A DNA stretch of 64,000 nucleotides, taken from positions 124,001 through 188,000 of the forward strand of contig FOAY01000003.1 of NCBI GenBank assembly GCA_900109485.1, in the 5' to 3' direction. This DNA comes from Kosakonia sacchari (lineage in GTDB: Bacteria > Pseudomonadota > Gammaproteobacteria > Enterobacterales > Enterobacteriaceae). How positions within the stretch are numbered: the stretch's first letter is position 1; every line of letters starts with the position of its first letter. Shown here piece by piece: positions 27,375-33,007 of this stretch. Position numbers and translations under genes: made by a program. The notes below the pieces were generated by a model, which did not search any database, was not told where the DNA came from, and saw nothing but the letters and a program-made list of their open reading frames with translations.

Positions 27375-29396
27375 ATGAGTAAACCGTTCAAACTGAATTC
27401 TGCTTTTCGCCCCTCCGGCGACCAGCCTGAGGCGATTCGTCGGCTTAAGGAAGGTCTGGAAGACGGCCTCGCGCACCAGACGCTGCTGGGGGTTACCGGC
27501 TCGGGTAAGACCTTTACCATCGCCAATGTTATTGCCGATCTGCAACGCCCAACAATGGTGTTGGCGCCGAACAAAACGCTGGCGGCGCAGCTGTATGGCG
27601 AAATGAAGGAGTTCTTCCCGGAAAACGCGGTGGAGTATTTCGTCTCCTACTATGACTACTACCAGCCGGAAGCCTATGTGCCCAGTTCGGACACCTTTAT
27701 CGAAAAAGATGCCTCGGTGAACGAGCATATCGAGCAGATGCGTCTGTCAGCAACGAAGGCGCTGCTGGAACGCCGTGATGTGGTGGTCGTGGCGTCCGTT
27801 TCAGCCATCTATGGTCTGGGCGATCCGGATCTCTACCTGAAGATGATGCTCCATCTGACCAACGGCATGATTATCGACCAGCGTTCGATTCTGCGTCGGC
27901 TGGCAGAACTTCAGTACACCCGCAACGATCAGGCTTTCCAGCGCGGGACGTTTCGCGTGCGTGGGGAAGTGATTGATATCTTCCCGGCGGAATCGGATGA
28001 CCTGGCGCTGCGCGTAGAGTTGTTCGACGAAGAAGTGGAGCGTTTGTCGCTGTTTGACCCGCTCACCGGGCATGTAGAATCGACCGTTCAGCGCTTCACC
28101 ATCTACCCGAAAACGCACTACGTGACGCCGCGCGAGCGTATCGTGCAGGCGATGGAAGAGATCAAAGATGAGCTGGTGGAACGGCGCAAGACGCTGCTGG
28201 CGAACAATAAGCTGCTGGAAGAGCAGCGTCTCAGCCAGCGCACGCAGTTCGATCTGGAGATGATGAACGAGCTGGGCTACTGCTCCGGCATTGAAAACTA
28301 CTCGCGCTATCTCTCCGGGCGCGGTCCTGGCGAGCCGCCGCCAACGCTGTTCGATTACCTGCCGTCCGACGGTTTGCTGGTGATCGACGAATCCCACGTC
28401 ACCATCCCGCAAATCGGCGGCATGTTCCGTGGCGACCGGGCGCGTAAAGAGACGCTGGTGGAGTACGGTTTCCGTTTGCCGTCGGCGCTGGATAACCGTC
28501 CGCTGAAATTTGAAGAGTTTGAAGCGCTGGCACCGCAGTCTATCTATGTTTCGGCGACGCCGGGCAATTACGAGCTGGAGAAATCCGGCGATGAAGTGAT
28601 TGACCAGGTGGTACGTCCGACAGGTTTGCTGGATCCCATCATCGAAGTGCGTCCGGTTGCTACGCAGGTTGACGATCTGCTGTCGGAAATCCGCATCCGC
28701 GCGGCCATTAACGAGCGCGTGCTGGTGACGACGTTGACCAAGCGTATGGCGGAAGATCTCACCGAATATCTTGAAGAGCACGGTGAGCGGGTGCGTTACC
28801 TGCACTCTGATATTGATACGGTTGAACGTATGGAAATTATCCGCGACCTGCGTCTCGGCGAGTTTGATGTGCTGGTGGGCATCAACCTGCTGCGCGAAGG
28901 GCTGGATATGCCGGAAGTGTCGCTGGTGGCGATTCTGGATGCGGACAAAGAGGGCTTCCTGCGTTCGGAGCGTTCACTGATTCAGACCATTGGCCGCGCG
29001 GCGCGTAACATCAACGGGAAAGCGATTCTGTACGGCGATAAGATCACGCCGTCAATGGCGAAAGCGATCGGTGAAACCGAACGCCGCCGCGAAAAACAGC
29101 ATGCCTATAACGTCGAGCACGGCATAACGCCACAGGGCCTGAACAAGAAGGTGGTGGATATTCTGGCCATGGGCGAAGGGCTGGCGAAAACGCGTGCGAA
29201 AGGGCGTGGCAAAACCCGCACCCCGGCGCAGGTGGAAGCGGCAGAACTGGCGCTGACGCCGAAAGCGCTGCAACAGAAAATCCACGAGCTGGAAGGGCTG
29301 ATGATGCAGCATGCGCAGAATCTGGAGTTCGAAGAGGCGGCGCAGGTGCGCGATCAACTGCACCAGCTACGTGAACTGTTTATTGTCGCATCTTAA
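27375..29396 (+). CDS. uvrB: UvrABC excision nuclease subunit B
   Basis: The central damage-verification helicase of nucleotide excision repair; it is loaded by UvrA and recruits UvrC. The 673-residue protein equals E. coli UvrB. Walker [10 protein letters not shown] (39-47), the beta-hairpin region [20 protein letters not shown] (about 92-111), the DESH box ([10 protein letters not shown]), helicase motifs V and VI ([23 protein letters not shown]) and the C-terminal UVR coiled-coil domain (about 630-666) that contacts UvrC are all present. It is SOS-regulated through the upstream LexA box. Confidence 0.98.
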
Positions 29397-29408
29397 TGTT
29401 TGCTTAAC
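29392..29408 (+). promoter_or_regulatory. PmrA box upstream of the putative pmrR
   Basis: CTTAAT, five bases (GTTTG), CTTAAC matches the PmrA consensus of two YTTAAK-like repeats spaced by 5. It overlaps the uvrB stop codon and lies 43 bases before the small ORF start. Confidence 0.75.
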
Positions 29409-29451
29409 CTACTCCTGACACACTGCCCCCACTATTCTGGAGGGCAGTGTC

Positions 29452-29544
29452 ATGCAGCAGTTTAACGTTCGTGAATTTTTAGCCGTCGCCTTCGCACTGG
29501 CATTAGTGATCGGTTTCGCTCATCTGTGGGTGCTGAGCTACTGA
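29452..29544 (+). CDS. pmrR: Putative PmrR, small membrane inhibitor of LpxT
   Basis: A 30-codon ORF (MQQFNVREFLAVAFALALVI...HLWVLSY) with a strong ribosome site (TGGAGGG) 8 bases before the ATG. The product is one hydrophobic helix (about residues 9-29). PmrR of Salmonella and E. coli is a roughly 30-residue inner-membrane peptide, PmrA-activated, that inhibits the lipid A phosphotransferase LpxT. As I recall the E. coli peptide, this one aligns without gaps over its last 25 residues and keeps V, E, L, F, V, F, W and the terminal Y. A PmrA box precedes it and it overlaps the 3' end of convergent pmrB by 42 bases. The assignment is inferred from context and weak similarity. Confidence 0.72.
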   Translation: MQQFNVREFLAVAFALALVIGFAHLWVLSY

Positions 29545-30630
29545 TGGCAAATGGCGGGCGGCCGGAAGAAATTTAATCCACGCCCGCACCCCGGATTGCG
29601 TCAGGCGGTTGTGCAAAAAGAACTGTGCGTCATGAAGCTGCGCGATGCGCGACACAATGCTTAATCCCAGCCCGGTTCCGCCGTAACGGCTGTCCATGCG
29701 GACAAACGCTTTGCTCAGTTCTCCGCTGCGGCTCTCATCAATGCCCGGACCTTCATCCTCCACGGCCAGCACTGGCGTAGCAGCCGGTTCGATGCGTATC
29801 GTAATGACCGAACCTTCCGGGCTGTAGCGGTACGCGTTCTCCACCAGATTTCTCACCAGCAGCCTTAACAGCGTGGCATCGCCGGAGACGGCAATATCGG
29901 CGTCAATTTCCGGCACCGCCAGCGTTTGCTTGCGCCCGGCGAGCATGGTTTCCAGCTCGCTGCGAATGGGCACCACCACGTCGGCCATCAGCCGTACCTG
30001 CTGGTAACTGCCAGCCGAAAAAGACTGCCCGACGCGGGCAAGCAGCAACAACTGCGCGATGTTTTCCGTCATCTGTTCGAGCCGCTGTACCAACGGCTCG
30101 ACGTTGATGCCGTTGGTTTTTGCCATCAACTCCAGATGCAGCCGCAGCCCGGCCAGCGGCGTACGTAGCTCATGCGCCACATCTGCTGTAAATAATCGCT
30201 CGCGATCCAGCGTGAGCGTCAGCCGCGAGACGAGATCGTTAATTGATGTCGTAACAGCCTCCACTTCGCTGACGCTGTTATTTAACGTAATCGGTTGCAG
30301 GTTATTCGGCGTACGTTTGTTAAGCTCTTCCTGCAACGCCAGCAGCGGGCGAGTAATGGCTTTGACCGCCTGCATACAAAGCAGCAGCGCCAGACCGATA
30401 ATCAGCAGGCTTGGCACCAGCAGGCTGGCGACCGCCTCGCGGACTTCATGTTCAACATGTTTACGGTTGTTATGGTTGTGGAGCGCCGCCTGCACCAGCA
30501 ACTGGATCTGCTCTTCACTTTCATGCCACAGCCAGAACACACTGACCAACTGGCAAAACACCAGAATCCCGCCGATGGTCAGCAGCAGACGGCGGCGCAT
30601 GCTCCAGTGGCTGAAATTGAAAAACGCCAT
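29503..30630 (-). CDS. pmrB: Sensor histidine kinase PmrB (BasS)
   Basis: Membrane kinase that senses Fe3+, Al3+ and mildly acidic pH and phosphorylates PmrA. The 375 residues contain TM1 (about 13-35), a short periplasmic loop with acidic metal-binding pairs (E37-x-x-E40 and E62-x-x-E65), TM2 (about 68-90), HAMP, HisKA with the phosphorylated His153 (DVAHELRTPLAG), and an HATPase domain with N box (NLVENAYRYSP), G1 (DEGPGID) and G2 (GTGLGLS). It is about 12 residues longer than E. coli BasS at the C-terminus, which is where it overlaps the pmrR candidate. It starts three bases after pmrA. Confidence 0.95.
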   Translation of the reverse strand: MAFFNFSHWSMRRRLLLTIGGILVFCQLVSVFWLWHESEEQIQLLVQAALHNHNNRKHVEHEVREAVASLLVPSLLIIGLALLLCMQAVKAITRPLLALQEELNKRTPNNLQPITLNNSVSEVEAVTTSINDLVSRLTLTLDRERLFTADVAHELRTPLAGLRLHLELMAKTNGINVEPLVQRLEQMTENIAQLLLLARVGQSFSAGSYQQVRLMADVVVPIRSELETMLAGRKQTLAVPEIDADIAVSGDATLLRLLVRNLVENAYRYSPEGSVITIRIEPAATPVLAVEDEGPGIDESRSGELSKAFVRMDSRYGGTGLGLSIVSRIAQLHDAQFFLHNRLTQSGVRAWIKFLPAARHLPSVAQHPQMSETDH

Positions 30631-30633
30631 TGA

Positions 30634-31305
30634 TTACTCCCGGTGTTGCGGCTGAACCAGCATGTAGCCAAACCCGCGGACGGTACGGATGCGCGATTTG
30701 CCGATTTTGTCGCGCAGATTATGAATATGGACTTCCAGCGTATTGGTCGAGGGCTCGTTGTCCCAGTTGTAGATATCGTTATAGAGAATTTCCCGGTGCA
30801 CCGGACTGTCGGCTTTCAGCATCAGGCGCGAAAGCAGGGCGTACTCTTTCGGCGTCAGATCCAGCAACTGGTTGTCCAGCCACGCCTGGCGGCGGGTGAC
30901 ATTCAGCGTCAGATTACCGTGGGTGATTTCGTTTTCACCCTGATTATGATGACGGCGCAGCAGCGCGCGGATACGGGCATTCAGTTCATCCAGCGCGAAG
31001 GGTTTGACCAGATAGTCGTCCGCGCCGGTATCCAGCCCGGCGACGCGATCTTCCAGCGTATCGCGGGCGGTGAGAATCAGCACCGGTTGGGTATATTTTT
31101 CTCGCCGCAAACGGGCGAGCAGATGTAATCCGTCTTCATCGGGCAGACCAAGATCGAGCACGATCAGGCTGTAGTGGCCGTTCGCCAGACACAGCACCGC
31201 TTCGTGCGCGGTGGATACGCCATCGCAGGCATATCCTTCGCTTTGCATCGCCAGAATCAACCCCTGCAACAGCAGAGCATCGTCTTCAACCACCAGAATT
31301 TTCAT
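30634..31305 (-). CDS. pmrA: Response regulator PmrA (BasR)
   Basis: OmpR-family regulator that activates lipid A modification genes (eptA, arn, pmrR). The 223-residue protein has a receiver domain with acidic pocket EDD (7-9), phospho-acceptor Asp51 and Lys in KPFAL, and a winged-helix DNA-binding domain ([14 protein letters not shown]... [25 protein letters not shown]). The ATG at 31305 overlaps the eptA stop (ATGA), showing a coupled operon; the six-codon upstream extension lies inside eptA. The two PmrA boxes in this window are its likely targets. Confidence 0.96.
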
Positions 31306-32939
31306 TTCGCCTGCTCCCGGCAAGACGTTAAAATATCGTCTTCAGCACGGTACTCTTTCGTGCTGACCCCCAGTATACCCAACATTGTCGGGAAGAGGTT
31401 GTCCTGCGAAACCGCCTTCTCCCGCGCATTTTTTTGCAGACACTGGTTATTCACGCCGTAGCGTTTCTGGTAGTCATCGGACAACCAGATCAGCATCGGA
31501 ATATGTTTTTGCGTTTCCGGTGCGATGGAATAAGGCAGACCGTGCAAATAAACGCCATTTTCACCCAGCGATTCACCATGGTCGGAGAGATACACCAGGC
31601 TGGTGGTAAATCTGTCCTGTTTGGATTGCAATAATTTAATCGCTTTATCAACAATATAGTCGATATACAAAATGGTATTGTCGTAGGTATTTACCAGTTG
31701 CTGCTGTGAGCAGCCCTGAATTTCGTTGGTATCACAGGTCGGCGTAAATTTGCGGAACTGCGCCGGATAACGGTTGTAATAAGTCGGCCCGTGGCTACCA
31801 ATGGTATGTAAAACGATAATGCCGTCGCCCTGTAATTTGTCGATATAGCTGGCGAGATCGTGGAATAAGATCTCATCCTGGCATTCACCCTTAATGCAAT
31901 ATTCCGGCAGGTTTAGCTGCGTCACATCCTGGTGCGGCACGCGATCGCAAGCGCCTTTACAACCGCCGTCATTTTCATTCCATAAAACCTGAATGCCGGC
32001 GCGTTGGATAATATCCAGCAACCCTTCCTGATGATGGGCAAGCTGATCGTCGTAATGTTCCCGCGGCATCCCCGAAAACATGCACGGAACCGAGACAGCG
32101 GTGGCTGTGCCGCAGGATGTCGCGTTCGGAAAGTAAATAACATTATCCTGTTTTAACAGCGGGTTAGTTTCACGCTCATAACCGCCAAGCGAGAAATTCG
32201 CCGCGCGGGACGTTTCACCCACGACCAGTATGGTCAGGTTCTTACGCGGACCATTTTTCATTTCCGGGCGTTGCTGAGCATCTTCGCCAATACGTACCAG
32301 CGGCAAATTATCCATGCGATTATGGGAATACCAGGACAGAGACGCCACAATGGAGTTGGACGGGCTGAGAGATTTCACCAGCTCTTTATTATTGCGAAAC
32401 AGCGAGGCGTAATCTTTATAAAACAGCAGCGCCACCAGCACGATAAGCAGCGCAGAAATAACGATACTGACCGCGCGATACGCGATGCTGCGCAGCGCTG
32501 ATTGCGCCGGTTTAATTTTAATAAACCAGGCAATGAGTACCGGCACAATGGCCGTCAGTAAAATCGTCAGCACCATTTTTGTCGACATCAGGGCGAAACT
32601 TTCCGCCGGCGTGGTGTCGAGAATATTGGTGATCATCGAGCGGTCAATGACGATGCCAAAGGTCGAAATAAAATATTGCGCTGCCGCGCTGACCAGCACA
32701 AACACCGTGATAAGCGGGCGTTCAAGAAAGAAGAATGACGCCAGCGACAGCAGGATATTGATCACGCTGAACGCCACCACCGGCATTGACAGAAATACCA
32801 GCCAGTTACGCAGCGAGTTTACCGGTAATAGCGTAAAAGCCTGATGGTAGAAAACGATATTCAGCGCCAGCGCAATATAGAGCGCAAACAGAATAATAAA
32901 CTGAAGACGGCTTAACGCCGGTCGACGAAGGTGAAGCAT
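31302..32939 (-). CDS. eptA: Lipid A phosphoethanolamine transferase EptA (PmrC)
   Basis: Transfers phosphoethanolamine from phosphatidylethanolamine to lipid A phosphates on the periplasmic face, reducing binding of polymyxin and cationic peptides. The 545 residues form five N-terminal membrane helices (to about residue 175) and a periplasmic alkaline-phosphatase-fold domain. The nucleophile Thr243 lies in [11 protein letters not shown], and zinc ligands lie in [12 protein letters not shown] and in [13 protein letters not shown]. The disulfide-forming cysteines are conserved ([17 protein letters not shown]). It is the first gene of eptA-pmrA-pmrB and carries its own PmrA box. Confidence 0.96.
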
Positions 32940-32990: not shown

Positions 32991-33007
32991 TTTAAGACAA
33001 CCTTAAG
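32991..33007 (-). promoter_or_regulatory. PmrA box of the eptA-pmrAB operon
   Basis: The minus strand reads CTTAAG, five bases (GTTGT), CTTAAA, and a third half site CTTAAT lies two bases upstream (plus 33010-33015). It sits 52 bases before the eptA start, consistent with PmrA autoactivation. Confidence 0.82.

Follow-up and report, generated by a model that had tools for sequence, protein, structure and literature searches.

A divergent pmrR gene beside uvrB in Kosakonia, with a leader inverted repeat that may hide its ribosome site in run-in RNA

The pmrR locus and its predicted promoter

The window (the whole stretch of DNA analysed, 64,000 nucleotides of Kosakonia sacchari contig FOAY01000003.1) carries uvrB on the forward strand (27375 to 29396), a 30-codon open reading frame (ORF) in the same direction (29452 to 29544) and, on the reverse strand, pmrB (29503 to 30630), pmrA (30634 to 31305), eptA (31302 to 32939) and yvcK. 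The sensor kinase PmrB, the response regulator PmrA and the lipid A phosphoethanolamine transferase EptA were matched by NCBIfam models NF008025 (E = 4e-166), NF007928 (E = 5e-116) and NF008619 (E = 2e-295), respectively. PmrB is 93% identical to PmrB of K. oryziphila REICA_142, and eptA has a PmrA box on the reverse strand (CTTAAGGTTGTCTTAAA, 32991 to 33007). The small ORF, pmrR, encodes a peptide of 30 residues with a single hydrophobic helix (MQQFNVREFLAVAFALALVIGFAHLWVLSY). As the original prediction had it, a strong ribosome site precedes this ORF (Shine-Dalgarno GGAGGG, 29439 to 29444, forward strand, 7 bases before the ATG), a PmrA box (CTTAAT-GTTTG-CTTAAC, 29392 to 29408, forward strand) overlaps the end of the co-directional uvrB, the stop codon of which (29394 to 29396) lies inside the box, and the ORF runs toward the end of pmrB, with which it has 42 bases in common (29503 to 29544). 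An antisense effect of pmrR on pmrB, proposed at the same time, was dropped as unsupported, because the overlap ranges among loci from 87 common bases to a gap of 44 and is not a kept feature.

In the 5.5-Mb genome there are 4 exact matches to CTTAAK-N5-CTTAAY (and 3 to the reversed control pattern), a count that tells of the rarity of the pattern only and not of regulon members; because the pattern is rare, its place 43 bases 5' of the ORF is improbable by accident. The other three exact occurrences are at G000 C24:83299-83315, C15:303490-303506 and C11:466555-466571. Among 101 pmrB loci (97 plus 4 named records), 36 had an exact-type box 40 to 46 bases 5' of a small ORF facing the pmrB end, a positional count that is independent of the HMM described below. 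Likewise, 127 distinct leaders, drawn from 216 loci, have a gap of 40 to 46 bases from box to ATG; all 127 keep a counterpart of the box, this being a selection criterion of the set (rows below 15 bits or with a box score below 11 were dropped). The recurrence in relatives that had been proposed as a check was found, in that box, 40- to 46-base spacing, frame and place opposite the pmrB end are seen in Kosakonia and Klebsiella and as far as Salmonella and Pantoea. The uvrB stop lies within the PmrA box in 6 of the 55 distinct uvrB-linked leaders.

Ten bases past the box in the window lies a predicted −10 hexamer, CACACT (29419 to 29424, forward strand). When leaders were aligned from the box, with the −10 at offsets 10 to 15, offset 11 was A and offset 15 was T in 99% of 86 pmrR leaders and in 100% of eptA promoters (n = 76). 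This placement puts the predicted PmrA-driven transcript start at about offset 22, which is position 29431 of the window on the forward strand (within about 2 bases), 7 bases past the −10. The available text of PMC4660055 assigns the −35 element to half-site 1 of the pbgP box, from which a −10 closer to the box would be expected; offset 10 is favored by the conserved columns, and the start is given here as predicted. Judged from sequence, the ORF has a PmrA box of its own at the −35 position.

Orthology with PmrR, coding and function

Similarity searches with the window peptide returned no match to E. coli PmrR by pairwise BLAST, even at E 100, nothing by tblastn against plasmids and no Pfam family; with all three empty, sequence alone does not settle the case, and the profile does. 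The weak identity noted in the original prediction was in this respect an apt description. At the level of profiles, 14 uvrB-linked and 10 proP-linked peptides matched over 28 ungapped columns in a profile-profile comparison (probability 96.3, E = 1.5e-9). With the uvrB-type HMM, 22 of 22 proP-type peptides scored above 99% of their own shuffles, as did 50 of 52 uvrB-type peptides with the proP-type HMM; the window peptide alone reached 8.4 bits with the proP-type HMM, a score equaled by 4 of 2,000 shuffles. Alignment of 27 peptides from the two families left M1, F22 and W26 invariant. F-x3-W close to the C terminus was present in all 112 peptides from distinct pmrB-linked leaders, a count that is partly by construction, since the set was picked by HMM. 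At E 0.01, an HMM built from the 27-peptide alignment matched 108 of the 392 genomes of Enterobacteriaceae, with unrelated long frames among the weaker rows and with some of the same genomes having contributed to the model.

The peptide found no family in NCBIfam, the curated PmrR model NF033224 included, at E 1 or at E 10. It falls short of the NF033224 cut-off, which is an annotation threshold rather than a biological feature; E. coli PmrR scores 74.2 bits (vs 30), and at E 10 the model matches 12 of the 27 family members, the window peptide not among them. The absence of a match to the curated model and of a pairwise BLAST match to E. coli PmrR would suit a small membrane peptide unrelated to PmrR that stands at the locus by chance, a reading that we consider highly improbable given the profile-profile E value, the reciprocal HMMs and the same locus, box, spacing and length. 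By its profile and setting, the ORF is a PmrR ortholog, divergent and unannotated, and the identity originally proposed for it is borne out by the profile match, the reciprocal HMMs and a position and PmrA box as in E. coli.

Its size and profile are those of PmrR (29 to 33 residues, one hydrophobic helix, the family sequence profile), and it is encoded opposite pmrB, running toward the pmrB 3' end. PmrR of E. coli K-12 (b4703) and Salmonella (WP_000844399.1; NCBIfam NF033224) likewise has 29 to 30 residues, one hydrophobic helix and F-x3-W near the C terminus, and its gene reads toward the pmrB 3' end and has its own PmrA box 43 to 44 bases upstream; b4703 stands in the same relation to basS/pmrB, with an overlap of 25 bases. 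The two differ in that the E. coli and Salmonella genes adjoin proP, whereas pmrR of the window adjoins uvrB, in the N terminus of the peptide, with about 27 to 31% identity in the alignment, and in that the curated model matches E. coli PmrR and misses the window peptide. Unnamed PmrR-like ORFs of Klebsiella (K. pneumoniae; K. aerogenes VDZ69036.1) are also uvrB linked, share the box, spacing and peptide motif and encode peptides 53 to 57% identical to that of the window. In K. pneumoniae NZ_CP079601.1 the pmrR ORF (L127 5062-5154) is present and unannotated; in K. aerogenes NCTC10006 (L129 2857-2949) it is labelled "Uncharacterised protein," in a record that has both pmrB and eptA broken into two pieces.

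Over codons 2 to 16, pN/pS was 0.30 in the pmrR frame versus 0.86 and 1.89 in the other two (652 non-independent pairs). The Rfam family RF02052, "STnc630," is classed as a small RNA and spans the box, leader and ORF of pmrR. Its whole model matched the window at 29385 to 29551 (forward strand) with 44.1 bits (E = 5.5e-7), below the gathering score of 55, and matched E. coli, C. freundii and Salmonella with 181.8, 178.5 and 176.1 bits, respectively, the stretches outside the window being L031 4048-4213, L130 2786-2951 and L131 2799-2964; at the gathering score it was absent from the seven other loci scanned (L127, L129, L302, L308, L193, L271 and L268). These matches could be taken to mean that the stretch encodes a noncoding sRNA in which the ORF is incidental. 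Selection on one frame alone and the annotation of pmrR at the same place speak against that, as do ribosome footprints: in the available text of PMC5331693, STnc630 of E. coli O157:H7 has 572 footprint reads versus 502 transcript reads and an RCV of 2.45 versus a threshold of 0.355. The Shine-Dalgarno sequence given there, aacggagga, is that of the E. coli pmrR leader, and the word pmrR is absent from the text available. We regard a purely noncoding stretch as very improbable; an additional role of the pmrR transcript as RNA is possible. The Rfam "sRNA" is in this way tied to a coding gene.

The original prediction held that the locus, if it has pmrR, carries both arms of the lipid A circuit; EptA is encoded in the window, and LpxT, the known target of PmrR, is encoded in the same genome (G000 C25:160111-160797, 75% identity). 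LpxT was found in 116 of 198 genomes, that of the window included, and also where no pmrR was seen; PmrB (NF008025) was found in 95 of the 198, which means that many pmrB loci are without a recognizable pmrR. According to the available text of PMC8129183, E. coli pmrR overlaps the end of pmrB, PmrA-dependent expression and binding and inhibition of LpxT are known for PmrR of E. coli and Salmonella, and deletion of the pmrR PmrA box renders a PmrA-constitutive E. coli strain sensitive to polymyxin, which loss of lpxT relieves. The gene, its orthology, the placement of PmrA box and −10, the selection on the frame and the presence of LpxT, EptA, PmrA and PmrB are what this analysis shows, and to them we carry over PmrA activation and LpxT inhibition from that E. 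coli and Salmonella work. On this analogy, iron(III) or low pH sensed by PmrB/PmrA would turn on pmrR, the 30-residue peptide would inhibit LpxT in the inner membrane, and the lipid A 1-phosphate would be left free for EptA. PmrR decides between an extra phosphate and phosphoethanolamine on lipid A and thereby determines tolerance of polymyxin and bile salts in E. coli. In Kosakonia, Klebsiella, Raoultella, Phytobacter and relatives, the uvrB-linked pmrCAB operons have a pmrR; since the curated model misses the window PmrR and one K. pneumoniae record leaves the ORF unannotated, work on pmrCAB there may be overlooking one of the two arms of the circuit. Taken as a whole, the locus is very probably Kosakonia pmrR, encoding a PmrA-made LpxT inhibitor, with a leader repeat that would hide the Shine-Dalgarno sequence in run-in RNA; the proposal for run-in RNA is graded separately below, and the PmrR verdict does not depend on it.

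The inverted repeat of the leader

Between the PmrA box and the ATG lies an inverted repeat with a 5' arm at 29420 to 29428 (ACACTGCCC) and a 3' arm at 29442 to 29450 (GGGCAGTGT), both on the forward strand; the 3' arm carries Shine-Dalgarno bases, and TGG at 29438 to 29440 is also paired in the predicted fold. The E. coli arms are ACTCTCCTCC and GGAGGAGAGT. The repeat is the new part of this analysis, without a claim that it is absent from print: predicted stem-loops downstream of pmrB are mentioned in PMC8004244, as far as its available text goes, and the main helix of Rfam STnc630, on the same stretch, is the inverted repeat of the pmrR leader.

Pairing is kept by compensatory change. In 79 distinct uvrB- or proP-linked leaders, 89.6% of 790 cells were paired versus 79.9% when the 3' letters were shuffled, changes on both sides of the same pair were found in 82 cells versus 38.6, and covariation was 0.299 versus 0.143. 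None of these three values was reached in 500 shuffles, and two weaker measures were reached in 24 and 34 of 500. Relatedness among leaders persists in the shuffle control and is removed when the arms are slid against each other, which left 41 to 55% of cells paired and covariation of at most 0.106. RNAalifold, unaided, predicts the helix with 7 pairs, 4 of them with double changes. Among Kosakonia, the window and K. oryziphila have the core ACTGCCC/GGGCAGT, and K. cowanii and the genome G390 have ACTCTCC/GGAGAGT; in K. arachidis (L263) the repeat is lost through changes in both arms, with box and peptide intact.

Such a pattern also bears on whether the repeat is a DNA palindrome to which a dimeric protein binds as its operator at the pmrR promoter. 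The 5' arm extends over the predicted −10 and discriminator, where repressors commonly act. An operator would be expected to stay constant in sequence; the arm letters differ between genera while complementarity stays, and a single pair is C-G in 35, A-U in 22, G-U in 9 and G-C in 6 of the 79 leaders. We therefore hold an operator to be improbable.

Folding of the isolated leader was better than that of 95% of its shuffles for 54 of 55 uvrB-linked and 31 of 31 proP-linked leaders. In the window, a longer stretch (29340 to 29500) gave a less striking fold (z = −1.51, 14 of 200 shuffles as good), and in the stretch from 29431 to 29500, which is without the 5' arm, the ribosome site was not hidden (z = 0.94). 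That the 5' arm is absent from the gene's own transcript is predicted from the −10 placement: the arm doubles as −10 and discriminator and would end before the predicted start. Because this start lies just 3' of the arm, we infer that RNA running in from uvrB or proP is silent for pmrR and that PmrA-started RNA is translated. In RNA with both arms the repeat would hide the Shine-Dalgarno sequence, so that pmrR on run-in transcripts of uvrB (and so also during SOS) or of proP would go untranslated, and a PmrA-started transcript, lacking the 5' arm, would be translated. We put this forward tentatively, at somewhat under an even chance.

As to a source of run-in RNA, uvrB and proP both read in the direction of pmrR and are close to it: the box lies −5 to 316 bases from the uvrB stop and 5 to 404 bases from that of proP, a run of five T's between upstream stop and box was found in 7 of 86 leaders, and a terminator search of the window from 29300 to 29700 found none. 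To open the start region, run-in RNA needed an additional 11.4 kcal/mol in the window, 15.3 in E. coli, 10.1 in K. pneumoniae and 16.1 in Salmonella, with medians of 11.9 kcal/mol in 94 leaders with a co-directional upstream gene versus 3.4 in 14 with a divergent one. A test of accessibility of 5 Shine-Dalgarno bases gave an effect at 43 of 64 loci and none in the window (0.20 in run-in RNA, 0.22 in the PmrA transcript and 0.22 in the null, 32 of 60 nulls being as low).

Hairpins over the ribosome site silence the IS10 transposase and T4 gene e on run-in RNA. There the 5' arm precedes the start site of the gene itself and the 3' arm lies over the ribosome site, as is predicted here; unlike those two, pmrR is a chromosomal, regulator-driven peptide gene, for which the mechanism is proposed by inference only. 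If it holds, pmrR would be insulated from its neighbor, and the choice of start site would decide whether LpxT is switched off. The leader suggests, in a form that can be tested, how a very small gene among close neighbors could be kept under the control of its own regulator.

Upstream-gene direction and the opposite strand

At the 0.05 level, the −10/discriminator region paired significantly with the ribosome site in 87 of the 94 pmrB-linked leaders whose upstream gene is co-directional, in 1 of the 14 in which it is divergent and in 2 of 71 leaders of eptA, which is also PmrA driven. The seven co-directional leaders that miss the threshold include three Kosakonia relatives (L263, K. arachidis; L232; L233); four leaders without a clear near upstream gene (L015, L210, L212 and L223), three of them significant, stand outside the contrast. 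Upstream genes were checked by homology, with the automatic assignment corrected for L176, L306 and L226; L271 was put in the co-directional class from the ORF map (an ORF ending 199 bases upstream), and the divergent neighbor of L221 was judged from its ORF only. By Pfam, divergent upstream genes encode a flavin reductase, a methionine sulfoxide reductase and an S24 peptidase, other co-directional ones an Na+/H+ antiporter and PAP2, and the neighbor of orphan copies CrcB. A Fisher P of 4.9e-11 for 87/94 versus 1/14 was set aside: on a PmrB tree that took in 92 of the 112 rows (20 rows without a usable PmrB end were left out, among them L021, L104, L220 and L226 of the divergent class), upstream direction changes once (sign test, P = 1), and because of this single change the link between hairpin and direction is without statistical weight.

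All 112 leaders scored for the hairpin are opposite a pmrB end, as would be expected if the repeat worked on the other strand, as a 3' untranslated stem-loop that protects or ends the eptA-pmrA-pmrB mRNA, the pmrR site being hidden by accident. Clone data can be read in the same way. In the available text of PMC8004244, a pmrB clone needs 103 to 126 bp of downstream DNA for colistin resistance (103 bp gave an MIC of 4 and 126 bp an MIC of 16), and 86 bp fails, with about 315-fold less pmrB mRNA than 126 bp and no resistance. Mapped on MG1655 (L031 4056-4181), the 86-bp clone stops at the loop, its end falling exactly between the loop and the 5' arm (+87 to +96), 103 bp adds the 5' arm and the −10, and 126 bp just completes the pmrR PmrA box (+110 to +126). 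The 126-bp result may equally reflect expression of PmrR, which the authors, in the text available, judged not to fit; it may concern pmrR expression, the hairpin or both. Against a role on the opposite strand, pairing is absent in 13 of the 14 leaders that are convergent with pmrB and whose upstream gene is divergent, the stem is not followed by a T-run on either strand, and the search given above found no terminator. Wobble pairs leave the strand unsettled (G.U in 30 inner cells versus A.C in 11, the outer pair adding 19 A.C). We judge a stem-loop in the pmrB mRNA unlikely, at about one chance in four.

Copies without a convergent pmrB cut both ways for these readings of the leader. In a Pantoea-like genus (L182 968, L201, L205 and L217), a pmrR-like ORF with a PmrA-type box immediately precedes eptA and is co-directional with it. 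Three of these four have a hairpin that differs in sequence (AAAATAnCCTC/GAGGnTATTTT) but keeps the geometry, which counts against the opposite strand since no pmrB converges on them; the upstream gene is divergent in three of the four. Further pmrR-like ORFs with box-like sites lie next to crcB, away from pmrB (L180, L181, L183, L188 and L190), and one of these five has a significant fold, though crcB is co-directional. In all, eight orphan copies speak against the direction contrast. At L187 (G074), two pmrR copies with the same box flank an apparent fimbrial operon inserted between uvrB and pmrB, and the copy on the uvrB side has lost the conserved Trp.
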